Shown here piece after piece: positions 24,162-54,704 of a DNA stretch of 64,000 bases. The notes beneath the pieces were generated by a model. The model had not been told where the DNA came from and did no database searches. It was given only the letters and a program-made list of their open reading frames with translations. A program made the translations under genes and the position numbers. The first letter of the stretch is position 1; each line of letters starts with the position of its first letter. The stretch is from Aliiroseovarius halocynthiae. Lineage in GTDB: Bacteria > Pseudomonadota > Alphaproteobacteria > Rhodobacterales > Rhodobacteraceae. Where the stretch lies: the NCBI RefSeq assembly GCF_007004645.1, contig NZ_ML660019.1, positions 640,437 to 704,436 of the forward strand, read 5' to 3'.

Positions 24162-24210
24162 CAGATTTGGCTGATGTCTAGCCGTTGTTTTATTGATTGA
24201 GGAGTTCACC

Positions 24211-25182
24211 ATGACGCGGTCGGCGCTTTCCATTCTTATCTGCTCTGCCGGGCGTCGTGTCGGTTTGATCGAGGCATTTCGTGTCGCCGCCGATCGGCTT
24301 TCTTTGGATTTGACGATACTAGCCTGCGACCTTGAGCCTGATCTTAGCGCCGCCTGCGCCGTTGCGGATCGCGCTTTCAAAGTTCCCCGATGCAATGACC
24401 CAGCCTATGTTGCTGCGATCAAGGACATCGTGCGGGATTTCAACGTGGCGCTTGTGGTGCCGACAATTGATCCCGAGCTTCAGCCGCTGGCGCAGGCTGT
24501 TGATGAGTTCACAGCGCTGGGCGCGCGGGTGCATGTCTCGGATCTGTCGGTGATCCAGATCGCGCGGGACAAGGCACGGACCTCTAACGTCTTTGCAGGC
24601 GCCGGCGTTCCGGTTCCGCGTACTTTGGATGAAACGCAGTTGCGGGCTGATCCGACCGCTCTGACATGGCCGGTCTTCGCCAAGCCCAGTGGGGGAAGCG
24701 CAAGTCGCGGATTGGCCGTCTATCACAGCATGCCGGACGTGCCGGATGCCTTTAACGAGCCGATGATCTTTCAGGATACGCTGGAAGGGCCGGAATATAC
24801 GATCAACATGTTCGTGGATCAGTCGGGGGTGCTGAAATGCGTCGTTCCGCATATCAGGCTGAGCATTCGGGCAGGAGAGGTCGAAAAGGGCCGCACTGAA
24901 CGGCGCGAGGATTTGAAGAAAATCGCACAGGGCATTGCAAGCGCATTACCCGGGCTGCGCGGAGTGGCCTGTTTTCAGGTCATCGATGACCCGACGCATG
25001 GCCCCCGCGTGATCGAGATTAACGCACGGTTTGGTGGTGGCTATCCGCTGGCCGACAACGCCGGGGCGACGTTTGCGCAATGGCTGTTGGAAGAGGTCTG
25101 TGATCTGCCCTCAAGCGCCAATGATGATTGGCGTGATGGTGTTTTGATGCTGCGCTATGATCGCGCGGTCTATCAGGGCTAA
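24211..25182 (+). CDS. ATP-grasp domain protein
   Basis: 323 residues. An N-terminal Rossmann-like domain (ILICSAGRRVGLIEAF) leads into an ATP-grasp fold with FAKPSGGSASRG and VIEINARFGGGYPLA, the Mg-ATP-binding end. Such enzymes ligate a carboxylate to an amine or similar nucleophile via acyl phosphate. The ATG at 24211 follows a GAGGAG site. It overlaps the HAD gene by 26 bases, so the two products are probably made together. Substrate unknown; related proteins occur in polysaccharide loci. Confidence 0.75.
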   Translation: MTRSALSILICSAGRRVGLIEAFRVAADRLSLDLTILACDLEPDLSAACAVADRAFKVPRCNDPAYVAAIKDIVRDFNVALVVPTIDPELQPLAQAVDEFTALGARVHVSDLSVIQIARDKARTSNVFAGAGVPVPRTLDETQLRADPTALTWPVFAKPSGGSASRGLAVYHSMPDVPDAFNEPMIFQDTLEGPEYTINMFVDQSGVLKCVVPHIRLSIRAGEVEKGRTERREDLKKIAQGIASALPGLRGVACFQVIDDPTHGPRVIEINARFGGGYPLADNAGATFAQWLLEEVCDLPSSANDDWRDGVLMLRYDRAVYQG

Positions 25183-25837
25183 GCGCGTGCTGGTCTTCGA
25201 TCTGGATGACACGCTGTATCTAGAGCGTGACTTTGCGTTCAGCGGCTACGTTCATGTCGGTGACTGGGTGCAGCAGCAGTTTGGCGCGCCTGATTTCGGG
25301 CTTCATTGTCGGCAGGCGTTTGAGCGCGGCGAGCGGACCCGCATTTTCAACCACGCCTGTCAGGCCGTTGGGCTCGAGGCGGACCCGGATCTGATCTCGC
25401 GTCTGATCGATGTCTATCGCAACCATCCCCCGGCCATTGATCTGTGCGCGGATGTAGCACGTTTCTTTGCACGCTCATCAGGTCCGTTTGGGCTGGTAAC
25501 GGACGGACCCGAGCAGATGCAGCGCAACAAAATCGCAGCTTTGGGGCTTGAAGCAATTATCGCGCATATCTGCCCAACAGGGGCATGGCCCAAAGGATAT
25601 AGGAAGCCACATCCGCGCGCCTATGAGTTGATGGAGCAGGCGGCATCGGGTGCGCGCATGGTCTATGTCGCGGACAATCCGGCCAAGGATTTTGTTACCC
25701 CAAGGGCGCGGGGCTGGGTCACGGTGCAGATCAATCGGCCAGGCAGGGTACATGCGCCGGATGCGCCGGATGACCTTCATGCGGCTGGCCACGTGATCGA
25801 CAGTCTTGATGATCTGGACGCGGTCTTGGCAAACTAA
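25157..25837 (+). CDS. HAD-superfamily hydrolase
   Basis: 226 residues. Motif I FDLDDTLY, motif II LVTDG, and the late motif VADNPAKDF indicate a HAD phosphatase. It overlaps the ATP-grasp gene by 26 bases; a GTG at 25187 is an alternative start that would remove most of the overlap. The stop overlaps that of the convergent glycosyltransferase by 3 bases. It probably dephosphorylates a small metabolite related to the ATP-grasp product. Confidence 0.75.
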   Translation: MIARSIRAKRVLVFDLDDTLYLERDFAFSGYVHVGDWVQQQFGAPDFGLHCRQAFERGERTRIFNHACQAVGLEADPDLISRLIDVYRNHPPAIDLCADVARFFARSSGPFGLVTDGPEQMQRNKIAALGLEAIIAHICPTGAWPKGYRKPHPRAYELMEQAASGARMVYVADNPAKDFVTPRARGWVTVQINRPGRVHAPDAPDDLHAAGHVIDSLDDLDAVLAN

Positions 25838-26904
25838 AGTTTTGCGGCCCGCGAAATCACCTTATCCCAATCGGACAAGATCTGGCCAGGGGCCAAACGA
25901 TCGCGATTGATCGCGGCTTGCCCGGCCATATGCGCGCGCAATGGGCTGTCTTGCATCAAACTACTGACCGCGCCGGCCAGCGCTGACGGGTTATCCACCG
26001 GGACCAGAAGTCCGTTCTCGCCCTCGACGATCATCTCACGCGGGCCGAAATCGCAATCGGTCGCGATGGCGGGAAGGCCAGCGACAGTCGCTTCAGCAAG
26101 GACGTTTGGAAAGCCTTCGAAACGCGAGGGCATGACCAGAATGTCGGCCTGCGACAGCCACGCCCCTGGGGAAAGGCTGGCGCCGGGCAGGGCGACGGTG
26201 TCTTCCAGCTGCAGGTCCTTTCGCAATGCCTCAAGCCTGTCGCGTTCGGGGCCGTCGCCATAGATTGTCAGGCGCACATTGGGGCAAGCCGCACGTACAT
26301 CCGCCATGGCGCGGATCAACACGTCGAAGCCTTTTTGCGTGTCCAGCCGCCCCACCGCAACCAGACGATGGCCCGCCGGGTCGGGCTGTGCGGGATAGTT
26401 TGGATGAGGCGCGCAGGGGTTCGGAATGACAACAGATGTAGCTTGGACGGCTCGGGGCAGATCCGCGCGGGCGCGGTCTGTTTGCATGACAGCACAGGCA
26501 GCGCGGCGTACCAGAAGGTTCTGCGCGTGCCGCCAGATCGGATGCGCCTTCTGCGCGCGTGGATTATTCCGTTCGGAGATCACAACAGGCACACCCGTGC
26601 CAATTGCGGCAGCAAGGCTCAGTACATTCACCTTGGTGAGAAAAGACAGTACCAGATCGGGTTGCGTAGTGCGGATCGTGTGCCGGATCATCCCAAGACG
26701 GGCAAGCGGGTTACCGGTTTTTGCCCCATCCGGAAGGAACAGCTGCACGTCATCTGGGTAGGGGAAATAAGATCCATCCGCTGGCATATCGAAGCCCATG
26801 GCCGTGACTTCATCGCCCATCTGGGCGCGGTGTGCAGCGATCATTGCGACGACTTTTTCAGCGCCACCTGCGCCGAAACCACCCTGAACGATAAGGATTT
26901 TCAC
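25834..26904 (-). CDS. Glycosyltransferase family 4
   Basis: 356 residues, GT-B fold. The acceptor domain begins MKILIVQGGFGAGGAEKV; the donor domain has VAVGRLDTQKGFDVLI and the E-x7-E-like region RFEGFPNVLAEATVAGLP. It is the last gene of the eight-gene leftward CDP-sugar operon, 3 bases after the GT2 gene. It likely adds one sugar on the cytoplasmic face of the lipid-linked repeat unit. Confidence 0.88.
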   Translation of the reverse strand: MKILIVQGGFGAGGAEKVVAMIAAHRAQMGDEVTAMGFDMPADGSYFPYPDDVQLFLPDGAKTGNPLARLGMIRHTIRTTQPDLVLSFLTKVNVLSLAAAIGTGVPVVISERNNPRAQKAHPIWRHAQNLLVRRAACAVMQTDRARADLPRAVQATSVVIPNPCAPHPNYPAQPDPAGHRLVAVGRLDTQKGFDVLIRAMADVRAACPNVRLTIYGDGPERDRLEALRKDLQLEDTVALPGASLSPGAWLSQADILVMPSRFEGFPNVLAEATVAGLPAIATDCDFGPREMIVEGENGLLVPVDNPSALAGAVSSLMQDSPLRAHMAGQAAINRDRLAPGQILSDWDKVISRAAKL

Positions 26905-26907
26905 AGC

Positions 26908-27909
26908 TTACTCCGCAGCGCTGGGAAGTGATGATTTGCCGCCGCTATGCGGTGGAGTCACATTGTCACTCTGATCAGGTGTGTTTAATTGCGTCTCGAT
27001 AAGGGGGCGATGCAGGTCTTTCGATTGCATGAAGATCCGACCGATATATTCGCCCAAAATGCCCAGAAACATCGCGTTCAATGTCATCGAGAGCAGCAGC
27101 AATACGGTGGTGGTTGCGAAACCAGCAGGCCAATCCTGCCCGAAGACCAGCTTGGCGATGATATAGAACATCATCAGAAGGAACGTACACAATCCGACGA
27201 TCAGGCTGATATACGAGGCCAGCCTGAGCGGCAAAAGTGAATGGTTTATCATGCCGTCGATGGCCAGCGACAGCATGGCGCGGAACGGGAATTTTGACTC
27301 GCCTTCAAGCCGGGCCTGCCGGTCATATTCAAAGCCGATCTGGCTGAAGCCCATGCCGCTGATCAGCCCGCGCACATATGGCGAACGGTCGTCGACACGC
27401 TTCAATTCGTCCAGAATACGCCGGTCGGTCAGGCGGAATTCGCCTGCGTTCCGGGGCAGGTTGTCATCGCTGATCCGATCAATCAGCATGTAATAGAAAC
27501 GGCGCGCAAAAGCGGTGATGCGTCCATCCGGCAGGCTGCGACGCACACCATAGACCACCTGATGCCCCTGTTTCCACAGGTCCAGCATTTGCGGGATCAG
27601 CTCGGGTGGATCTTGCAGGTCGCAATCCAGCTGAATAGCGCAGGCGCCACGCGCAGCACGATATCCGGTCAGGACTGACGCCTGATAGCCAACGTTTTTC
27701 GAAAAACGGATGACACGGACACGGGGGTCATTCTGCGCGATCTCGGACAGGATCAGGAAAGTGTCATCGTCCGAGTGATTGTCGGTGAAAATGATCTCTG
27801 GCTCATAACCGTCCAGTTCGGCGAATACGGCGAGCAGGCGGTCATAGGCGCGGCGGACATTCGCCTCTTCATTCAAGGCAGGGATGAGGATTGAAACAAG
27901 TGTTTTCAT
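26908..27909 (-). CDS. Glycosyltransferase family 2, GtrB/DPM1-like
   Basis: 333 residues. The GT-A domain begins LVSILIPALNEEANV and contains the LDCDLQDPPEL motif of dolichol/bactoprenol-phosphate glycosyltransferases; two membrane helices lie at about 230-255 and 268-292. Such enzymes make undecaprenyl-phosphate sugars for periplasmic use. GtrA and a GT-C membrane protein are encoded upstream in the locus, completing a Gtr-like set. The start overlaps the SDR gene by ATGA. Confidence 0.85.
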   Translation of the reverse strand: MKTLVSILIPALNEEANVRRAYDRLLAVFAELDGYEPEIIFTDNHSDDDTFLILSEIAQNDPRVRVIRFSKNVGYQASVLTGYRAARGACAIQLDCDLQDPPELIPQMLDLWKQGHQVVYGVRRSLPDGRITAFARRFYYMLIDRISDDNLPRNAGEFRLTDRRILDELKRVDDRSPYVRGLISGMGFSQIGFEYDRQARLEGESKFPFRAMLSLAIDGMINHSLLPLRLASYISLIVGLCTFLLMMFYIIAKLVFGQDWPAGFATTTVLLLLSMTLNAMFLGILGEYIGRIFMQSKDLHRPLIETQLNTPDQSDNVTPPHSGGKSSLPSAAE

Positions 27910-28868
27910 GCTGATCTCCTGTTCGTGGAATGGGGAAGGCTTGGGCGGGTGATCTGGGCCAGCATGGCGATCCCGTCCTTCAGATTGATGTCCGGGGTCC
28001 AGCGCAGCACATCGCTTTGGGTGCGTGGATCAATCCGAAGTTCAACCGCGTCGTCGTCCCGCTGGTCCTTGAATTGCACAAGCTGATCTGACGCCCCCAT
28101 GGCCGTGATGACGGCAAGGGCGACCTCGCGCATGGTTGGGGCGCTCCCGGTTCCAATGTTTATGACCTCTGGCAGCGCGTCCGACAGCGTGCCCATGCGC
28201 AGCAGTGCCGTGACCACATCATCGACATGAATAAGATCGCGACGATCTTTGGGGCGGGCGAGGGCTATCGGCTGCTGGGCCGCACATGCGTTGATCAACG
28301 AGGGCAAAAGAAAATCCGCCGACTGCACTGGGCCATAGGTCAGCGCCAGACGTGCGGTTGAGGCTACGAATGGGAGCCGACCTCGGATGCCTGTCAGAAA
28401 CTGGGTTCCGGCCAACATGGACAAGCCATAGGCGTTGACGGGCTTTTCCTTGGTGCTTTCGTGATAGGGGGCGGCAATTGGGCCATATTCCGCGATGGTT
28501 CCGGCGCGGATAAATGCCTTTGGTGCGTGAGCCGCACGGGCGCAAGCGGACAGAAGCGCCATGAGCGGCACAAGATTTGCGTCCAGCCCGGCTTGCAGAT
28601 CCGACAGGTCGTCTTGCGGGGTAAAGCGGGTTCTGGCCCCAAGATGAAAGACAATTTCGGGCCGCGTGCGTGTCAGACAGGTGTCCAGCTTGCCCTGATC
28701 GGAAAGCTGAACGCGCTGAATATCAAGGCGCGCGGCAATGTTGGCGACCCGCTCAAGCGTCGAGGTCGGGCGCACCAGCAGCGTCACCTCGTCCCCGCGC
28801 GCAAGGCATCTGCGCGTAAGGTGAGAGCCAATGAAGCCCGTGCCGCCAGTGATCAGAACCCGTGCCAT
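27906..28868 (-). CDS. NAD-dependent epimerase/dehydratase (extended SDR) with altered YxxxK motif
   Basis: 320 residues. The Rossmann motif GGTGFIGSH (8-16) is intact. The catalytic tyrosine is Tyr147 in NAYGLSMLAG, but the position four later, normally Lys, is Met151; the codon reads ATG where AAG would be lysine. It may be the 4-ketoreductase/epimerase finishing the CDP-deoxyhexose, but loss of the lysine raises doubt about normal catalysis. It is within the CDP-sugar operon, 8 bases after the methyltransferase. Confidence 0.8.
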   Translation of the reverse strand: MARVLITGGTGFIGSHLTRRCLARGDEVTLLVRPTSTLERVANIAARLDIQRVQLSDQGKLDTCLTRTRPEIVFHLGARTRFTPQDDLSDLQAGLDANLVPLMALLSACARAAHAPKAFIRAGTIAEYGPIAAPYHESTKEKPVNAYGLSMLAGTQFLTGIRGRLPFVASTARLALTYGPVQSADFLLPSLINACAAQQPIALARPKDRRDLIHVDDVVTALLRMGTLSDALPEVINIGTGSAPTMREVALAVITAMGASDQLVQFKDQRDDDAVELRIDPRTQSDVLRWTPDINLKDGIAMLAQITRPSLPHSTNRRSA

Positions 28869-28876
28869 TCCGTCAC

Positions 28877-30121
28877 CTATGGCACAAGACGCGGCATCGG
28901 CAGGGGCACGATGAACTTGCCGCCGCGTGCTTCGAAGTCGGACATCTGATCGCGGATTTCATCAAAGAAATTCCACGCGAGAACCAACAGATAGTCAGGC
29001 TTGCGCTCTGCCACCACGTCGGGCGACAGGATCGGAAGGCGCGTGCCGGGGGTGAACAGGCCCTGCTTCAGCGGGTTCTTGTCCACCACGAAATCAAGCG
29101 TCTCGGCACCAATGCCGAAATAGTTTAGCAGCGTGTTACCTTTGGCTGGTGCGCCGTAGGCCGCGACGGTTTTCCCCTCGGCCTTGATGTCGGACAGCAT
29201 CTGTTTCAACTGGCGTCCCAGCTCGTCGACACGTTCGGCAAAGGCCTCGTAGGTGGCGCGCTGGGTCAGCCCTGCTGTATCTTCCTCGGCCAGCATTTCG
29301 GCGACGACTGGCGCGGGGGCCTGCCCAAGGCTGGCGCGTTTCATGAAGACTCGCATGGATCCGCCATGCACCGGCAGTTTGGTAACATCCACCACATCCA
29401 TCCCGCGCGATTGACCAAGCCGGACAATCGACAGCAGGCTCAGCTCGGACATGTGCTCGTGATAGACATTGTCGAACTGGTTGGCCTCGACGATCTTCTT
29501 GCCCCACGGCACCTCGATCACGAAAACACCGTCATCATCCAGCAGAACAAGAACTGCGTCCATGAACCCGTGCAAATCGTCGATGTGATTAAACGTGTTC
29601 GTGGTGGTGATGACTTTCGCGGGCCCCTTGTCTTTCAGAACCGCGCTTGCGGTTTCGGGATTGAAATAGGCGGTCAGCACATCAACGCCGCGCTCTTTTG
29701 CAAGCGGCGCAAGGTTGGCTGCCGGGTCGATACCAAGAACCGTGGCACCCGCTTTCACGGCATGGCCCAGCATCAGGCCGTCATTGCAGCCCACATCGAC
29801 GATCAAGCCGCCATCCGCATGCTCACTGGCCACTGACGCAAGCCCCGCGAAGTGTTCGTGCATGGTGGCAGCGCCCGAGGGAACGTATAGATAATCCTCG
29901 AAAAACGCGTCGGGCACCTGATCGGCGACCTGAATGAGTCCGCAATCCAGACAGGCTTGGGTATTCAGCTCGAATGCTGGTTGGCGCTGTTCCGGGTCTG
30001 CGGTTTTAGCAAACATGTTTGCGGGCGGATGCGCGCCCATTGGCAGGAAAAGAAACAGGTTCTTAGATCCGCATGTGCGGCACTGAGACAGGGTCGATGC
30101 GGGTTTGGATTGCACATTCAT
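28877..30121 (-). CDS. SAM-dependent sugar C-methyltransferase (TylC3/NovU type)
   Basis: 414 residues in three parts typical of NDP-sugar C-methyltransferases: an N-terminal zinc site with C14-x2-C17 and C57-x2-C60, a SAM-binding Rossmann domain with VDVGCNDG near 108-115, and a C-terminal domain beginning near AAYGAPAKGNTLLNY. Conserved YHEHMSE is present. Known members methylate a ring carbon of 4-keto-6-deoxy sugars. With the CDP-sugar genes around it, a branched-chain deoxysugar is expected. ATGA overlap with the acyltransferase gene. Confidence 0.87.
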   Translation of the reverse strand: MNVQSKPASTLSQCRTCGSKNLFLFLPMGAHPPANMFAKTADPEQRQPAFELNTQACLDCGLIQVADQVPDAFFEDYLYVPSGAATMHEHFAGLASVASEHADGGLIVDVGCNDGLMLGHAVKAGATVLGIDPAANLAPLAKERGVDVLTAYFNPETASAVLKDKGPAKVITTTNTFNHIDDLHGFMDAVLVLLDDDGVFVIEVPWGKKIVEANQFDNVYHEHMSELSLLSIVRLGQSRGMDVVDVTKLPVHGGSMRVFMKRASLGQAPAPVVAEMLAEEDTAGLTQRATYEAFAERVDELGRQLKQMLSDIKAEGKTVAAYGAPAKGNTLLNYFGIGAETLDFVVDKNPLKQGLFTPGTRLPILSPDVVAERKPDYLLVLAWNFFDEIRDQMSDFEARGGKFIVPLPMPRLVP

Positions 30122-31221
30122 GAAAGCGTTCCCTTTTGAATAATTTTAGGTCGAGTGGCCCAATTCTTGACCAGTTTCTGAGGATATTTTTCAAACAATA
30201 TGAAAGAAATATGAGCTGCCGCGATGGACAGGATGAAGGTGACGACGCCGAACAGAAAAACACTGAGCCACGCGTTGTCCGAGAAGAAGTCAAGCTTTTG
30301 AAACACGACGCGGGTGGGCATGTAGATATAGGGATGCACCAGATACAGGCTGTAGCTGATCGTCCCCAGATATTGCGCCCAGCGCGCAGACAGAATCCGT
30401 GCGGTGACGCTGTCTTTCTCGACCGCGAAGAGGAAATATAGAAAGGTCAGCGCCATGCAGATCAGGGTGATCGGCTCGCGCAGTTCCCCGGCACGGAAGT
30501 CGAAATGCGCGCGCGAGGCGGCATAGGCCAGCGACAGCGCGGCGATGATTTCCAGCAGCGGGCGGGCGGGTAGCTTCTGGACGATCTGCCTGCCATGCAG
30601 CACGAAGACCAGAATGCCTGCGACGAAATAGATGGATTTCGGGAAGATCACCAGAAACGCGATCGAGGCAAGAGTGATGAGCATCTGCAGCCCGCGCATC
30701 CTTTGGGTGATCGCGAATGCGCCTAGACCGGCAAGGATGTAGAACATCATCTCATAGGTCAGGCTCCACGCGTTCGGGGTCAGCTGTTCGGTGCCCGCCA
30801 GCAGGTTGGTGAAGGTCAACGCATATAGGATCGTGGGCAGGTCGTTCATCTGCGGTTGCAGGTTGGTGACCGCATTCCCAGCGATGAAGATCAGCGAGAA
30901 GACCAGAAACAGCGGATAGATCCGCAGCATTCTGCGGGTCGCGAAATCACGTGGTGTATAGCGAAAGGCGCTGGGCAGGATCACGAAACCTGAAATTGCG
31001 AAGAACAGATAGACAAAGAAGGTGCCGAAATTCCAAAGCGGCTCGGACACGGCAAGATAGGCTGCGTTGTCGGAGTAAACATGTTCCGCCGTGCCACCGA
31101 CGATATGGGCAAACAGCACCATTGCAGCGGCCACGCCCCTCAACCCGTGAATGCCAGTATTCTGGCCGCCCTCATAGGGCAGCCAGTCCGGCAATTGGTG
31201 AGGGGCGCGAAGCTGGCTCAT
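30118..31221 (-). CDS. Acyltransferase family 3 (OafA-like membrane O-acyltransferase)
   Basis: 367 residues with about ten membrane helices. It begins with GIHGLRGVAAAMVLFAHI, which carries the conserved N-terminal arginine and histidine of this family, and includes FFAISGFVI and ISYSLYLVHPYIY. Such proteins add acetyl or other acyl groups to surface polysaccharide sugars at the inner membrane. Tightly coupled by ATGA at both ends. Confidence 0.88.
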   Translation of the reverse strand: MSQLRAPHQLPDWLPYEGGQNTGIHGLRGVAAAMVLFAHIVGGTAEHVYSDNAAYLAVSEPLWNFGTFFVYLFFAISGFVILPSAFRYTPRDFATRRMLRIYPLFLVFSLIFIAGNAVTNLQPQMNDLPTILYALTFTNLLAGTEQLTPNAWSLTYEMMFYILAGLGAFAITQRMRGLQMLITLASIAFLVIFPKSIYFVAGILVFVLHGRQIVQKLPARPLLEIIAALSLAYAASRAHFDFRAGELREPITLICMALTFLYFLFAVEKDSVTARILSARWAQYLGTISYSLYLVHPYIYMPTRVVFQKLDFFSDNAWLSVFLFGVVTFILSIAAAHISFILFEKYPQKLVKNWATRPKIIQKGTLS

Positions 31222-32423
31222 TGCGCGGCAACCCCTTGTTGCTGCTTGGCAAAGTCAGCAAACATCTCGTGCACGTATTCCACGTGCGCGGGTGTCAGCC
31301 CGTGATGCACCGCCAGAAGGATCCCGCCCTTCATCACCTGATCCGACACGGGATATCCTGCCGGATCCGACGTATAGGTGACGCTTTTCATGGCGGGTTG
31401 GCGCAGGATGTTGCCGGTAAAGACCGGGCGTGTTTGGATGTCTGCCTTTTCCAGATGGATCTGAAGATCACGCCGGGTGAAAGGCGCGCCCTCGCGCAAG
31501 GTCAGCGGGAAGGACAGCCAGCCGGTGCGGCTATTAGGCAGTTGTTTTGGCAGGATGAACCAGTCTTCATAGGCCTTGAAGAAGGCCATATGCGCGTCGA
31601 AGTTCTTTTCCCGCTCGCGGATGTTGTGATCCAGTTTATCCAACTGCACCAAGCCGAAGGCCGCACTGATTTCCGAGGGTTCAAGGTTATAGCCCAGATC
31701 TTCGAACAGGAACTTGGCGTCATAATCGATCCCGTCCACCTGCACGTTAAAGCGGTTCTCGATTGTCTCGGATTCCACAAAAAGCGATGAGCTGCGGCCC
31801 CATGAGCGCAGAAGCAGCGCTTTGCGGCCCAGCTCTTCGTCATTCACACACAGCATCCCACCATTGCCCGCGCCGTTGATCACATGCGAGCCATAGAAGC
31901 TGGTGGTCGAGACGTCCGAGAACTTGCCGGTGCTGTCCGAGCCAATCGTGGCACCCAGCGTATCGGCGCTGTCCTCGATCACCTTCAGACCATGCGCATC
32001 CGCCAACTCGCGAATGCGGCGCCAGTCTGGCAAATTGCCGATCAGCGACGGGATCATCACGGCCGAAGTATTGGGCGTAATCATTCGCTCGATTGCGTCC
32101 ACGTCGATGTTGTACGTGCCGGGGGCCACGTCCACGAAGGCGGGCACCAGCCCCTGACGCACCAGCGGCGCGACGGTGGTGGCGAACGTCAGGGCAGGGG
32201 TGATCACCTCGCTGCCCTTGGGCAGGTCCAGAATTTCGACCGCCAGATAATTGGCGCTGGATCCCGAGTTCACCATGATCCCGTGATTTTTTGCAAACAG
32301 CGCCGCGACACGTTCCTGCATTTTGCGCACGCGCGGGCCCATCTGGGTCGAGGTCTTCAGCACGTCGACAACGGCGTCGATCTCCTCCTGACCATGTACG
32401 GTCTGTCCGTAATTCACTCGCAT
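31218..32423 (-). CDS. DegT-family PLP/PMP-dependent 3-dehydratase-like enzyme (ColD/RfbH type)
   Basis: 401 residues, aspartate-aminotransferase fold. Asp151 would contact the cofactor ring. The residue that is the Schiff-base lysine in aminotransferases is His180 in SFYGSHVINGAGNGG, as in ColD and in CDP-6-deoxyhexulose 3-dehydrase (E1/RfbH). It lacks the four cysteines that hold the [2Fe-2S] cluster in E1/RfbH: the only cysteine is Cys192. It therefore looks mechanistically closer to ColD while sitting next to CDP-glucose genes. Expected to remove the 3-hydroxyl of a 4-keto-6-deoxyhexose. Confidence 0.83.
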   Translation of the reverse strand: MRVNYGQTVHGQEEIDAVVDVLKTSTQMGPRVRKMQERVAALFAKNHGIMVNSGSSANYLAVEILDLPKGSEVITPALTFATTVAPLVRQGLVPAFVDVAPGTYNIDVDAIERMITPNTSAVMIPSLIGNLPDWRRIRELADAHGLKVIEDSADTLGATIGSDSTGKFSDVSTTSFYGSHVINGAGNGGMLCVNDEELGRKALLLRSWGRSSSLFVESETIENRFNVQVDGIDYDAKFLFEDLGYNLEPSEISAAFGLVQLDKLDHNIREREKNFDAHMAFFKAYEDWFILPKQLPNSRTGWLSFPLTLREGAPFTRRDLQIHLEKADIQTRPVFTGNILRQPAMKSVTYTSDPAGYPVSDQVMKGGILLAVHHGLTPAHVEYVHEMFADFAKQQQGVAAQ

Positions 32424-32443: not shown

Positions 32444-33568
32444 CTATTGTGCGGCCAGCGATGTTGTGTCCTGAGATGCCCCCGACATCAGTGCGCCGTA
32501 ATGCGCGATCTGGGACATGGTAAATTCTTTCATGTTTTCATTCGCTTGGTGGGCGCGATACCAATCGACCGTCATCTGAACCGCATGCGCCAGATCCAGT
32601 TGCGGTCGCCAGCCCAATTGGGTCTGTGCCTTGGTGCTGTCCAGTCGAAGCACGCCCGCCTCGTGCATCTTGGGATCGGCCTGACCGAATTCGAACTGCG
32701 GACCATTTGTCCCCCAGCTTTCTTGCATCTGCGCTGCAAGTTCCCGCACATTGACAGTGCCCGAGATATCGGGGCCAAAGTTCCACGGGCCCGCGAAGGG
32801 CGCGCCGTCGGTCAGCAGCCGCGCGGCCAGTGCCAGATAGCCGGAAAGAGGCTCTAGCACATGTTGCCAAGGTCGAATGCTGGCGGGGTTACGGATCTGT
32901 ACGGGCTGGCCAGCGACGGTCGCGCGCACGATGTCCGGGATCAACCGATCCTCGCCCCAGTCACCACCACCAAACACGTTACCTGCCCGCACCGTTGCCA
33001 GTTGCGGGCCGTCTGCTGTGTTGAAGAACGAGCGTTGATAGGCTTGGGCCACAAGTTCGGTTGCACCTTTCGACGCACTGTAGGGATCAGAGCCACCCAT
33101 CGGGTCATTCTCGCGATAGCCCCAGCTCCACTCGTTATTCTCGTAGCATTTGTCACTTGTGACGACGATTGCCGCTTTCAGCGACGGCATCGCGCGCGCC
33201 AGATCCAGCACATGCGCCGTGCCTGACACGTTGGTCGCGAAGGTTGCGGCTGGTTCGGCGTAGGACCGGCGCACGAAAGGTTGCGCGGCCATATGGATCA
33301 TCAGATCGGCGTCGATATCGCGGGCCTGCATCAGCAAAGCTTCACGATCGCGAATGTCGATCAGGCGGCTGTCCATATTGCCTGTCAGCCCCGTCACATC
33401 ACACAGGTTCGGGCCGGGATCGGGTGCAAGGGCTATGCCCGTCACACGCGCACCAAGCTGCATCAGCCAATGGCTGATCCAACCGCCCTTGAACCCGGTA
33501 TGCCCGGTGACAAGGACGTGGCGGCCGTGGAATGTGCCGCCGAAATCAGAGGGAACAGCGCCGGACAT
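32444..33568 (-). CDS. rfbG: CDP-glucose 4,6-dehydratase
   Basis: 374 residues, extended SDR. TGHTGFKGGW (21-30), TSDKCYEN (137-144) and active-site Tyr163-x3-Lys167 in DPYSASKGATE are intact and match CDP-glucose 4,6-dehydratases. It converts CDP-glucose to CDP-4-keto-6-deoxyglucose. The ATG at 33568 follows a GAGGT site; the frame could start at a TTG 12 bases upstream. It directly follows the cytidylyltransferase gene. Confidence 0.93.
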   Translation of the reverse strand: MSGAVPSDFGGTFHGRHVLVTGHTGFKGGWISHWLMQLGARVTGIALAPDPGPNLCDVTGLTGNMDSRLIDIRDREALLMQARDIDADLMIHMAAQPFVRRSYAEPAATFATNVSGTAHVLDLARAMPSLKAAIVVTSDKCYENNEWSWGYRENDPMGGSDPYSASKGATELVAQAYQRSFFNTADGPQLATVRAGNVFGGGDWGEDRLIPDIVRATVAGQPVQIRNPASIRPWQHVLEPLSGYLALAARLLTDGAPFAGPWNFGPDISGTVNVRELAAQMQESWGTNGPQFEFGQADPKMHEAGVLRLDSTKAQTQLGWRPQLDLAHAVQMTVDWYRAHQANENMKEFTMSQIAHYGALMSGASQDTTSLAAQ

Positions 33569-33576
33569 TCTGCACC

Positions 33577-34383
33577 TCAAATCGCAAGGGCCGTGATGTC
33601 ATTCGGCAGCTCTTCATTGAAGCGCATCCAAGGCGGCGTTTCCTCTTCGCACAGCTCGTTCAGCGTGTTGCGGTCGCGGATCGTGTCCATTGGATGCCAG
33701 AACCCGTCATGGCGATATGCCATCAACTCGCAATCCTGCGCCATTTGGGTCAGCGGAGACTGTTCCAGCGGCTCCATATCATCGACGAAATAGTCCATAA
33801 CCTCGGGCTCAAAAACGAAGAAGCCCCCGTTGATCCAGGTGTCACGGCGGCGCACCTTCTCGGTGAAGGCCTCAACCCGATCGCCGGCAAGTTCGATGTT
33901 GCCGAAACGCGCTGGCGGCTGCACAGCGGTCACCGTGGCCAGCTTGCCATGCGATTTGTGGAAGTCGATCAGCGCGTTGATGTCGATATTGCCTACCCCA
34001 TCGGAATAGGTGACCATGAACGGGCCGGGCTTCAGCCATTCTTTCAGACGACGAATGCGTCCGCTGGTCATGGTTTTCGGGCCGGTATCCACGACCGAGA
34101 CATTCCAGCCGCCGGGGGCAACCGGAACCAGATCCATTTTCCCGCTGTCCAGCGACACGCTGATATTGTTGGCGATCAGGTGATAATTCGCGAAATACTG
34201 CTTTAGCGACAAGGATTTGTAACCTGCGGCCACGATGAAATCGTTGTGGCCGAACTGGCTGTAGATATCCATGACGCGGGTGATGATCGGGCGTCCTCCG
34301 ACCTCGACCATGGGTTTCGGGATGGCGACAGTTTCTTCGGCCAGACGCGAGCCAAGTCCGCCTGCTAGCAAGATCGTTTGCAT
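33577..34383 (-). CDS. rfbF: Glucose-1-phosphate cytidylyltransferase
   Basis: 268 residues, usual length. The nucleotidyltransferase start ILLAGGLGSRLAEET with IPKPMVEVGGRPI, and GGFFVFEPEV and GFWHPMDT near the end are characteristic of RfbF. It makes CDP-glucose from CTP and glucose-1-phosphate and opens the CDP-sugar branch. First gene of the eight-gene leftward operon; 115 bases separate it from the gene upstream, enough for a promoter. Confidence 0.95.
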   Translation of the reverse strand: MQTILLAGGLGSRLAEETVAIPKPMVEVGGRPIITRVMDIYSQFGHNDFIVAAGYKSLSLKQYFANYHLIANNISVSLDSGKMDLVPVAPGGWNVSVVDTGPKTMTSGRIRRLKEWLKPGPFMVTYSDGVGNIDINALIDFHKSHGKLATVTAVQPPARFGNIELAGDRVEAFTEKVRRRDTWINGGFFVFEPEVMDYFVDDMEPLEQSPLTQMAQDCELMAYRHDGFWHPMDTIRDRNTLNELCEEETPPWMRFNEELPNDITALAI

Positions 34384-34498: not shown

Positions 34499-36151
34499 TC
34501 ATTCTGAAATCTCCCCGGGTTGAAGAAAGACGCGACCCTTGCCGTAGCGATTGGTCAGACCGTCGATAGAAATTTCGCGATAGCCCTTTTCGATCGCGTA
34601 GTTCAGAAGCGGCGCCTCGAGCGCGGGTTCGTATCCCAGCACAAAGGCGGCGGGCGGTTCAAAATCGAACACCTCGGTGATCTGATCCGGTCCGGCCATA
34701 ACGTAGTGCTGTGCAAGCTCTGGGTCCGTGTAGGGCGCGATGCGATAGGCAAATTGGCCAGTGGCAAGCTCGGGATAGATGTCCAGCCCGGCTTCGAGCG
34801 GATAGATCGGCAGCAGGGTTGCGACCTTACCGTTGACGATGCCGCGATCAGACATCGCTTTTGCAAGCGCGTTGCCCCCGGCATTCATACGTTCCGGGGT
34901 CGATGCGGTGACCCCCAGTGTTGTGCGCAGATCCGGGGCGAGCCAAGGCAGGGCGGTCAGGACACACAGCAGGGACGCAGCAGCAAGAACCGAACGCGTG
35001 AGTTCCTGATGCGGCCAAGGCACGCGGGCCAGCATCAACGCGGCCAGTACGGGCAACAGCACCAAGGGTGCCACGTAGTATTGTGAGAAACCGGGCGTGG
35101 GCAGGAAGCTCATCATCGCGGTTGTCAGAAGGGCCCCCAGCACGACCATGATCGGTGCAAGGGTGGTATGCGGATCCACGCGCTCGGGATCAGTAGGTGT
35201 CGAAAATGCCATCCATGCAAAGCACAGGATCACAAAACTTAGGATCAGCGGAACGCCTGAGAGCCAGATCCCATAGGCCAGATAGGCCTTTGCCCAAAGG
35301 CTCATGGCCAGATCGGGTTCGCTCAGGTGGTTGGCCTCCCAATAGTCGACGTGGGGACCGGTGTGGAACTGAACGATATGGGCTAGGAACAGCTGTGGGT
35401 CTGACAAAAGCAGCATGAATAGGGGCAATGCAGCCACAAGCCCCCCAAAAAGCACCGGCAAAGCGACACGGCGCACACGCAGCCGGAAGGGCAGCGCGGC
35501 GGGCAAGAGGAACGCGGCAACGGCTACCGGCGGGATAAAGGCAACTGCACTGACTTTGATGCCTGCCGCGATAGACAGGCATATGCCGGATGCAAACAGG
35601 CGCGAGCGACGCAATGTTTGATCTTTCAACTCGATCACGAACAGGCCCAGCCCGCCAAGTGCGAAGGGTAGTGGTAGCAAGTTGTTGGACGCGGCCATCC
35701 CAGGCTCGTTCATCAGCGGGTGACAGGTCAGGGTCGCGACGACGGCAAACAGAGCAAACCCTGTTGAACCTGACAGGCGCAGTGTAAGCCACCCCGTCAC
35801 GCCCGCCAGCATAAGCCATACGGCGAAAACCCCGATACGGGCCGAGAACAGAAGCCCGCCAGCCCCGAAGAACAGATCGAAGACGCGGAAGTACCACGCA
35901 GAATAGGGTACGTGGTTATAGAACAGATCTTGATACAGAGACAGATCGCTGAGCAGGCGGGCAGGAGGGACGAACATCATCTCGTCCCTGCGCAGCCCAT
36001 AGCCCATTAGGCGGCCATAGACAGCGGCCAGAAGAATGGCAAAGCCGATCACCAAGGCAATCTGTCCCATGCGGCGGGCGACTGGGTCGTCCAACGTTTT
36101 GCGTGGCATATGCGTGTCAGATGTGGATTTGAACAGATCGGTTACACTCAT
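34499..36151 (-). CDS. Polytopic membrane glycosyltransferase, GT-C type
   Basis: 550 residues with about ten or eleven membrane helices. The first external loop contains LRRDEMMF, an Arg/Asp/Glu cluster like the catalytic acidic motif of GT-C enzymes, followed by a C-terminal soluble region (about 430-550). The reading frame extends far upstream, but those codons are a shadow of gtrA; the ATG at 36151 overlaps the gtrA stop. It likely uses a lipid-phosphate sugar to modify the polymer at the periplasmic face. Confidence 0.75.
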   Translation of the reverse strand: MSVTDLFKSTSDTHMPRKTLDDPVARRMGQIALVIGFAILLAAVYGRLMGYGLRRDEMMFVPPARLLSDLSLYQDLFYNHVPYSAWYFRVFDLFFGAGGLLFSARIGVFAVWLMLAGVTGWLTLRLSGSTGFALFAVVATLTCHPLMNEPGMAASNNLLPLPFALGGLGLFVIELKDQTLRRSRLFASGICLSIAAGIKVSAVAFIPPVAVAAFLLPAALPFRLRVRRVALPVLFGGLVAALPLFMLLLSDPQLFLAHIVQFHTGPHVDYWEANHLSEPDLAMSLWAKAYLAYGIWLSGVPLILSFVILCFAWMAFSTPTDPERVDPHTTLAPIMVVLGALLTTAMMSFLPTPGFSQYYVAPLVLLPVLAALMLARVPWPHQELTRSVLAAASLLCVLTALPWLAPDLRTTLGVTASTPERMNAGGNALAKAMSDRGIVNGKVATLLPIYPLEAGLDIYPELATGQFAYRIAPYTDPELAQHYVMAGPDQITEVFDFEPPAAFVLGYEPALEAPLLNYAIEKGYREISIDGLTNRYGKGRVFLQPGEISE

Positions 36152-36576
36152 GCTGCACCTTTTCCGTTGTCGGACCCGCCGCGCAGTGCGGCCGAGACGA
36201 GTTTGAAGGACAAAAGAACCGTTGGGACCAAGGCGATGGCTTGTGCCAGATAGGCGCCTATGTCGAAGCCCATCAGCAGCTTCAGCAAACCGGCGTTGAA
36301 CAGGTAAACCGCCACATAAGCCGCGACATATTGGGGGAAGCGACCGTAACCGCGGGTGCCAAAGACGAAACGTCCATGGGTCATGTGATTGAACACCACA
36401 CCAATGGCGAATTGCAGGGCCAGCGCCGCTTGGGGATATGCGCCCGCGAAGACAAACGCAGCATAGATCGAATAGCCGAACCCGGTATTCACCACACCAG
36501 CCAAGACGAACCGCAAGAAGCGGTTGCCCTGATCTGGCGTTTCGCCCGAAGGCATCGGCGTCGCAGCGCGGATCAT
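36148..36576 (-). CDS. GtrA-family membrane protein
   Basis: 142 residues with four membrane helices. FVLAGVVNTGFGYSIYAAF and NHMTHGRFVFG are typical of the GtrA family, thought to flip undecaprenyl-phosphate-linked sugars across the inner membrane. It overlaps the neighbouring genes at both ends by ATGA. The adjacent GT-C protein and the GtrB-like GT2 at 26908 fit a Gtr-type side-branch system. Confidence 0.88.
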   Translation of the reverse strand: MIRAATPMPSGETPDQGNRFLRFVLAGVVNTGFGYSIYAAFVFAGAYPQAALALQFAIGVVFNHMTHGRFVFGTRGYGRFPQYVAAYVAVYLFNAGLLKLLMGFDIGAYLAQAIALVPTVLLSFKLVSAALRGGSDNGKGAA

Positions 36577-53540: not shown

Positions 53541-54704
53541 ATGTCCAGCTGGCCCGTTTTTGATGAAGAACAAATTACCGCCGTGACCGAGGTTTTGCGC
53601 TCGGGCAAGGTCAACGCATGGACCGGCCCCGATGTGCGGGCCTTCGAGGTAGAGTTTGCCGATTGGTTCGGCGTCCCGCATGCCATTGCGATGGCGAACG
53701 GCACGGTCACTCTGGACGCGGCGCTGCATGTGCTGGGTCTGTCTGAAGGCGACGAGGTGATCGTCACACCCCGCAGTTTTATCGCCTCGGCCAGTTCCGT
53801 TTCGCTAAAAGGCGGCGTGCCGGTGTTCGCGGATGTCGATCCGGACAGCCAGAACATCACCGCCGACACCATCGCGCCTTTGATTACGCCGCGCACCAAG
53901 GGGATCGTCCCGGTGCATCTGGGCGGCTGGCCCTGCGATATGGTCGCGATCATGGAATTGGCGCGTGCGCATGATCTGTGGGTGATCGAGGATTGCGCGC
54001 AGGCCCACGGAGCGATGATCGGCGACCAACATGTGGGCAGCTTCGGGACATTTGGCTCGTTTTCTTTCTGTCAGGACAAGATCATGACCACGGGCGGCGA
54101 GGGCGGCATGCTGACCACCACCGACCGGGATCTTTGGTCCAAGGCGTGGAGCTTTAAGGATCACGGCAAGGACTATGATGTGGTGCTCAACACCGAGCAC
54201 CCTCCGGGCTTTCGTTGGCTGCACGGGGTCGGACCGGGCACAAATTTGCGTATGACCGGACCGTCAGCGGCCATCGGTCGGGTGCAGCTAAAGCGACTGG
54301 TGGATTGGCGTGGACAGCGTACCGAAAACGCAGACATCTTGGCGTGCGCCTTGTCTGATCTGGATGCGGTACGGGTGCCCGACTTGCCTGACGGCCTGAC
54401 CCATGCCTATTACCGGTTTTATGCATTCGTACGCCCTGAGGCGTTGAAGAATGACTGGAGCCGTGATCGTATCATTTCCGAGGTCTCGGGCGCTGGGTTT
54501 CCGATTTTTTCGGGCAGTTGCAGCGAGATTTACCGAGAGGGCACCTTTACACGCTATGGTTTGGGGCCAGATGCACCACTTCCGGTCGCGCGCGCGCTTG
54601 GTGACACTAGCCTGTGTTTTTTGGTGGACCCGACTTGGATCAAGGAACGTACTTGTGACTTGGCAGATTGTTTGCGGCAGGTGATAGGGGACGCGACTCG
54701 CTAA
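53541..54704 (+). CDS. DegT/DnrJ/EryC1/StrS-family sugar aminotransferase
   Basis: 387 residues. The PLP lysine is Lys180 in FCQDKIMTTGGEGG and the cofactor aspartate is Asp151, so this is a true aminotransferase, unlike the His-bearing relative at 31218. It likely aminates the 4-keto sugar made by the PglF/WbpM-type dehydratase. The ATG at 53541 has a perfect GGAGGT site. Last gene of the four-gene rightward amino-sugar set. Confidence 0.9.
   Translation: MSSWPVFDEEQITAVTEVLRSGKVNAWTGPDVRAFEVEFADWFGVPHAIAMANGTVTLDAALHVLGLSEGDEVIVTPRSFIASASSVSLKGGVPVFADVDPDSQNITADTIAPLITPRTKGIVPVHLGGWPCDMVAIMELARAHDLWVIEDCAQAHGAMIGDQHVGSFGTFGSFSFCQDKIMTTGGEGGMLTTTDRDLWSKAWSFKDHGKDYDVVLNTEHPPGFRWLHGVGPGTNLRMTGPSAAIGRVQLKRLVDWRGQRTENADILACALSDLDAVRVPDLPDGLTHAYYRFYAFVRPEALKNDWSRDRIISEVSGAGFPIFSGSCSEIYREGTFTRYGLGPDAPLPVARALGDTSLCFLVDPTWIKERTCDLADCLRQVIGDATR

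Follow-up and report, generated by a model that had tools for sequence, protein, structure and literature searches.

CDP-3,6-dideoxyhexoses are known to be made by an iron-sulfur enzyme acting together with a reductase (the E1/E3 pair). A 64,000-nucleotide stretch of the Aliiroseovarius halocynthiae genome (contig NZ_ML660019.1, positions 640,437 to 704,436; hereafter the window) raises the question of how a 3-hydroxyl might be removed in a CDP-sugar operon whose E1-like protein has a single cysteine. An earlier note on this DNA had suggested a CDP-sugar enzyme working by the ColD mechanism with glutamate and PMP. Judged from its sequence and gene context, the protein, like RfbH, most likely removes the 3-hydroxyl from a sugar that is activated with CDP and destined for cell-surface polysaccharide. 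In particular, it is probably a PMP-dependent 3-dehydratase that converts CDP-4-keto-6-deoxy-D-glucose to CDP-4-keto-3,6-dideoxyglucose with neither an iron-sulfur cluster nor an E3-type reductase; the dehydratase activity, the glutamate-dependent turnover and the final sugar are the parts of this reading that we infer.

The gene encodes a protein of 401 amino acids on the minus strand, and its start and stop codons lie exactly where the earlier note had put them (Table 1). The protein belongs to the DegT/DnrJ/EryC1/StrS superfamily by its match to Pfam PF01041 (DegT_DnrJ_EryC1, 272.5 bits) and by its predicted fold. The predicted structure (mean pLDDT 93) lies nearest to that of E1, the CDP-4-keto-6-deoxy-D-glucose 3-dehydratase also called RfbH, DdhC or AscC (PDB 3BCX; Z 50.8, 34% identity), followed by ColD, the GDP-4-keto-6-deoxy-D-mannose 3-dehydratase (PDB 2GMS; Z 48.9), and aminotransferase folds were matched as well. 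Overall, sequence and fold are slightly closer to E1 than to ColD. As the earlier note had recognized, the site of the PLP lysine is occupied by a histidine, His180, which aligns with H220 of E1 and H188 of ColD (the PDB chain numbering of ColD is the native numbering plus 2). The preceding residue, S179, aligns with S187 of the Ser-His pair that ColD carries at the lysine position, where E1 has Ala219. Exchange of this pair in the ColD variant S187N/H188K (PDB 3GR9) shifts the enzyme towards aminotransfer. Position 303 (F345 in E1) and the equivalent of His181 are unlike both E1 and ColD.

Upon alignment with E1, the four ligands of its [2Fe-2S] cluster (C193, C251, C253 and C261) correspond to A153, S212, L214 and I221. 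The only cysteine of the protein is C192, which is nearly invariant among homologues. A single cysteine is insufficient for an iron-sulfur cluster, in agreement with the earlier claim that the protein cannot carry that of E1. In this respect it resembles ColD, which is likewise free of iron-sulfur.

Plasmid records in the public databases label members of this family ‘DegT/DnrJ/EryC1/StrS family aminotransferase’, and the DegT/DnrJ fold would suit a sugar aminotransferase that makes a CDP-4-amino-4,6-dideoxy sugar. However, the catalytic PLP lysine of DegT-type aminotransferases is a histidine in this protein and in 49 of 49 members of its clade, the His-type proteins are all set apart from the Lys-type aminotransferases (support 100/99 in the careful tree described below), and YerE, which we discuss with the Legionella clusters, requires a 4-keto acceptor. 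We therefore consider an aminotransferase very unlikely. If the protein is a 3-dehydratase, a systematic ‘aminotransferase’ label would be corrected across the family.

The 49 sampled homologues form one clade. None of them has a cysteine at the positions of E1 C251, C253 or C261, and eight have one at the first ligand position (C193); by contrast, all four ligands are present in each of the 33 RfbH/E1 relatives sampled. Conservation of this pattern over 49 homologues takes the observation beyond chance. The two groups share about 35% identity. Against the RfbH profile (NCBIfam NF011936, cut-off 423 bits), the 401-residue protein scores 311.8 bits and the cysteine-free members 264-335 bits, all below the cut-off, whereas 666.7 bits are reached by a true RfbH from the same bacterial family. 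The cysteine-free proteins are a real, unnamed subfamily that is widespread though patchily distributed. Relatives with 61-93% identity occur in roseobacters, Sinorhizobium/Ensifer, Kaistia, Pararhizobium, sphingomonads, Legionella, one Thiotrichales genome and marine Flavobacteriales, and homologues are plasmid-borne in Roseibium, Labrenzia, Ensifer and Leisingera. Among 390 sampled genomes of the order, 13 carry the gene, the window's own included, and six others carry a true RfbH instead; in a sample of the bacterial family, the cysteine-free gene is present in 6 of 394 genomes. In 12 genomes, the cysteine-free protein is the sole E1-type protein. The missing RfbH-defining residues could also mark an RfbH in decay, with cluster and function both lost, but strong conservation over several phyla, intact reading frames, retained operons and the lack of any other such enzyme in the tested genomes make such decay exceedingly improbable.

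The ancestry of the clade was addressed with two trees. In a quick tree, the cysteine-free clade, the iron-sulfur E1 clade and the ColD-like clade each formed one group, and long branches left the place of the first relative to ColD unsettled. A careful tree, from which the worst long branches and the cysteine columns were left out and in which SpnQ was not included, gave the cysteine-free clade a support of 100/99 and placed it as sister of iron-sulfur E1 at 98/87. The latter was itself supported at 100/100, and the ColD-like group, with the cysteine-free clade outside it, at 100/96. By descent, the sequences indicate that the cysteine-free protein is neither RfbH nor ColD but the sister of RfbH/E1. 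The earlier note had called for such a tree; it upholds a distinction from the RfbH/E1 clade, whereas a position within ColD was not borne out.

Two further proteins invite comparison. SpnQ, the dTDP-4-keto-2,6-dideoxyglucose 3-dehydratase, is likewise a His-type PMP 3-dehydratase but has a [2Fe-2S] cluster and a dTDP-sugar substrate (PMC8987622), whereas the protein studied here lacks the cluster cysteines and sits in a CDP context. PDB 9WVY, a ‘putative NDP-4-keto-6-deoxyglucose-3-dehydratase’ for which our literature search found no describing paper, is also His-type (SFYAGHH), and its aligned region is without the Cys-x-Cys of E1; it shares about 30% identity with our protein and falls on a different branch of the tree. 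A 2022 review does not name an iron-sulfur-free CDP enzyme (PMC8987622). Our search of open-access papers returned no earlier account of an iron-sulfur-free RfbH group, and no characterized iron-sulfur-free CDP group was found to which the protein could be assigned. Because relatives without the cluster lie on all sides (ColD-like, Lys-type and 9WVY), a gain in the E1 line is the shorter account. We offer it tentatively, on a tree that omits SpnQ: the [2Fe-2S] cluster and radical reduction may have been acquired once, by RfbH/E1 after the split, with the cysteine-free clade keeping an older hydrolytic, glutamate-driven form. Comparing the cysteine-free clade with E1 would be a natural way to study the timing and manner of the cluster's origin in E1.

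The gene neighborhood links the protein to CDP-sugar synthesis. In line with the earlier note, CDP-glucose genes stand alongside, and both rfbF and rfbG score above their curated cut-offs (Table 1). They are followed by the gene for the 3-dehydratase candidate and those for the acyltransferase, the C-methyltransferase, the SDR protein and the GT2, while the genes for the GtrA protein and the polytopic membrane protein lie upstream of rfbF, rfbG and the dehydratase gene. A Roseibium plasmid has the same gene order, and there the counterpart of the polytopic protein is annotated as glycosyltransferase family 39. From its predicted proteins, the operon reads as one for CDP-sugar synthesis, undecaprenyl-phosphate loading, flipping and surface-glycan transfer, of which the last three steps would follow from the protein families. 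The protein shares with E1/RfbH the CDP-glucose genes, the histidine in place of lysine and a sister position in the tree. It differs from ColD in belonging to a separate clade and, as far as gene context tells, in adjoining CDP-glucose rather than GDP-mannose genes.

Table 1. Features of the CDP-sugar operon and other genes in the window.
Feature	Coordinates	Strand	Evidence and remarks
GT4 glycosyltransferase, same operon	25834..26904	(-)	PF13692, PF00534
GT2, PgfS/ArnC-like, probable undecaprenyl-phosphate glycosyltransferase for the finished sugar	26908..27909	(-)	NF047588 202.7 bits, NF007986 136.5 bits, both below cut-off
SDR/epimerase-family protein, probable 4-keto reductase	27906..28868	(-)	PF01370; role inferred from pathway position
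Sugar C-methyltransferase (Methyltransf_13/14)	28877..30121	(-)	PF08484 207 bits, PF08421; optional in relatives' clusters
Membrane O-acyltransferase (Acyl_transf_3)	30118..31221	(-)	PF01757; optional in relatives' clusters
Predicted Fe-S-free PMP-type 3-dehydratase, DegT/DnrJ fold, 401 aa	31218..32423	(-)	ATG at 32423, stop at 31218; H180 for PLP lysine, S179, C192 the only Cys
rfbG, CDP-glucose 4,6-dehydratase	32444..33580	(-)	TIGR02622 453.5 bits, cut-off 278.45
rfbF, glucose-1-phosphate cytidylyltransferase	33577..34383	(-)	TIGR02623 318.6 bits, cut-off 300.25
Polytopic membrane protein, probable GT-C glycosyltransferase	34499..36151	(-)	No Pfam match; start uncertain
GtrA-type membrane protein, probable flippase	36148..36576	(-)	PF04138
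ATP-grasp and HAD-family proteins	24193-25837	opposite	Adjoin the operon in many relatives
Second DegT/DnrJ protein	53556-54335		Normal PLP lysine, motif SFCQDK; ordinary aminotransferase type

Across alpha-proteobacterial relatives, the core rfbF-rfbG-dehydratase-SDR-GT2 is kept, while the C-methyltransferase and the acyltransferase are variable. A C-methyltransferase gene nevertheless follows the dehydratase gene in many of these clusters, and deep members of the clade occur in non-CDP contexts. The enzyme might accordingly be a 3-dehydratase of another operon substrate, for example a C-methylated CDP-4-keto sugar if the methyltransferase acts first, or might use PMP to assist a different reaction at C3, epimerization for instance. 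Many clusters keep the dehydratase gene without a C-methyltransferase, however, and Legionella has a YerE-like enzyme in its place, which renders this reading rather unlikely. A 3-dehydratase of the unmethylated CDP-4-keto-6-deoxyglucose also fits the genomes in which the gene stands outside an rfbF/rfbG operon: six of eight such genomes encode a CDP-glucose 4,6-dehydratase above the cut-off, compared with 1 of 14 control genomes, and the two that do not are deep branches of the clade. The core clade travels with CDP-glucose 4,6-dehydratase even when the genes are unlinked. In four Flavobacteriales genomes the dehydratase gene is alone or adjoins an RmlD-type reductase gene, and in the three examined, rfbF, rfbG and a 3,5-epimerase gene are located elsewhere in the genome; together with the dehydratase, they are an ascarylose-like set. 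The split of this pathway in marine Flavobacteriales is seen at L069:7053-9191 and L177:8445-10880, where dehydratase and RmlD-type reductase lie apart from rfbF-rfbG-epimerase.

The Legionella clusters contain rfbF, the dehydratase, GT2, SDR and GtrA genes. A gene for a ThDP enzyme and rfbG both lie on the contig of the cluster, within ~30 kb, in L. maceachernii, L. drozanskii and L. nautarum. The top structural match of this enzyme is 5ahk (460 bits), and acetolactate synthase isozyme 1 scores 310 bits; from its context, we take it to be YerE-like. Yersiniose A is itself a 3,6-dideoxy sugar. CDP-3,6-dideoxy-4-keto-glucose is the known acceptor onto which YerE transfers activated acetaldehyde (PMC12247030), and a passage in PMC7867332, citing Sonesson and Jantzen 1992, places yersiniose A in the LPS of L. 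maceachernii. The genome of this species contains no RfbH above the cut-off and no E3-like Fer2 reductase; because its single Fer2 match lies inside a 784-amino-acid frame that is presumably NuoG, L. maceachernii would be without an E3. L. nautarum and L. drozanskii do have a Fer2-FAD-NAD reductase with the domain order of E3 (L149:1459-2433 and L150:775-1758), in each case on another contig than the CDP cluster. L. maceachernii also encodes a ColD-like His-type protein (L092), which is a less likely source of yersiniose A because its gene is separate from the CDP genes, in a heptose/transketolase cluster. That cluster (L144:12078-15869) comprises split transketolase subunits and genes for a heptose-type kinase, an isomerase and a nucleotidyltransferase, a set that points to a pathway for a C-branched or deoxy heptose. 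A cysteine-free 3-dehydratase would explain Legionella yersiniose A without RfbH or E3. Taken together, the contexts in alpha-proteobacteria, Legionella and Flavobacteriales, in the unlinked genomes and in those where the protein is the sole E1-type protein place the 3-deoxygenation of CDP-4-keto-6-deoxyglucose at this gene and support its catalysis by the cysteine-free protein.

E1 depends on an E3 partner, and none was found in the window's genome. A tblastn search with an E3-like reductase returned no match in the window, as the earlier note had observed, and a genome-wide domain search revealed no E3-type reductase: FAD_binding_6 occurs in only two proteins, NqrF and a PaaE-like protein, both with Fer2. 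The earlier use of this absence as support for the mechanism does not hold up. Six genuine iron-sulfur RfbH loci from the same bacterial family (L035-L040) are equally without a neighboring E3, although one of them, L037, has a ferredoxin-motif reductase nearby that resembles PaaE. Since true RfbH loci share the absence, it is weak evidence, and we rejected ‘no E3 nearby’ as a discriminator.

Ferredoxins and flavoprotein reductases are present in the window's genome, and the closest relatives of the protein are the reductive E1 enzymes; a CDP-pathway C3-dehydratase could on these grounds have its hexoseen reduced directly, by a ferredoxin or flavoprotein acting on the PMP adduct from outside, with no recycling by glutamate. 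Yet every cluster ligand is missing, L. maceachernii lacks an E3-like reductase, and we know of no enzyme of the DegT fold that uses an outside donor directly on the PMP adduct. We give such a donor little credence. Rather, with no cluster in the protein, the ColD route is to our knowledge the only known one left, and by elimination we infer a ColD-type turnover (PMP, glutamate, hydrolysis) as the best account of the cysteine-free enzyme, whose mechanism is presumed to be like that of ColD. In E1, the hexoseen adduct is reduced via the cluster and E3, and SpnQ performs a similar reduction with ferredoxin or flavodoxin; ColD is cluster-free, its adduct is hydrolyzed, and PMP is recycled by glutamate (PMC8987622). 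That our protein is a CDP-sugar enzyme without iron-sulfur, as first suggested in the earlier note, is well supported by the 49-member clade and the CDP-glucose genes.

In the mechanism that we propose, RfbF and RfbG, encoded just before the dehydratase, would supply CDP-4-keto-6-deoxy-D-glucose, whose keto group would form a Schiff base with PMP. The cofactor would then lose a proton at C4' to His180, with departure of the C3 hydroxyl. Hydrolysis of the resulting 3,4-hexoseen adduct would yield PLP and an enamine sugar, which would tautomerize and lose ammonia, and glutamate would convert PLP to PMP again. In the window's organism, the product would be C-methylated and then reduced at C4, so that the final sugar might, at a guess, be a C-methylated 3,6-dideoxyhexose. 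The GT2 would load it on undecaprenyl phosphate and GtrA would flip it for transfer to the surface polysaccharide. If true, a single protein would open a route to 3,6-dideoxy sugars that dispenses with the iron-sulfur enzyme and its reductase and that probably tolerates oxygen.

Some branches and clusters depart from this pattern. The deep members of the clade, from Acidimicrobiales, Pelagibacteraceae and the Rhodococcus plasmid pLRE138, may have other substrates. The pLRE138 protein (L164:8992-10215) is a cysteine-free His-type homologue with 48% identity that lies amid catabolic-looking genes; no CDP-sugar genes were found nearby, so that a different substrate is conceivable for the deep clade. 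Two Aliiroseovarius genomes that lack the C-methyltransferase have genes for a pyruvate-dehydrogenase-like E1 alpha/beta pair beside the CDP-sugar operon (L041:13346-16326 and L042:13349-16321). They are accompanied by an unusual protein in which a lipoyl domain is fused to a PglD-like hexapeptide acyltransferase, and this arrangement might branch the sugar in a third way.
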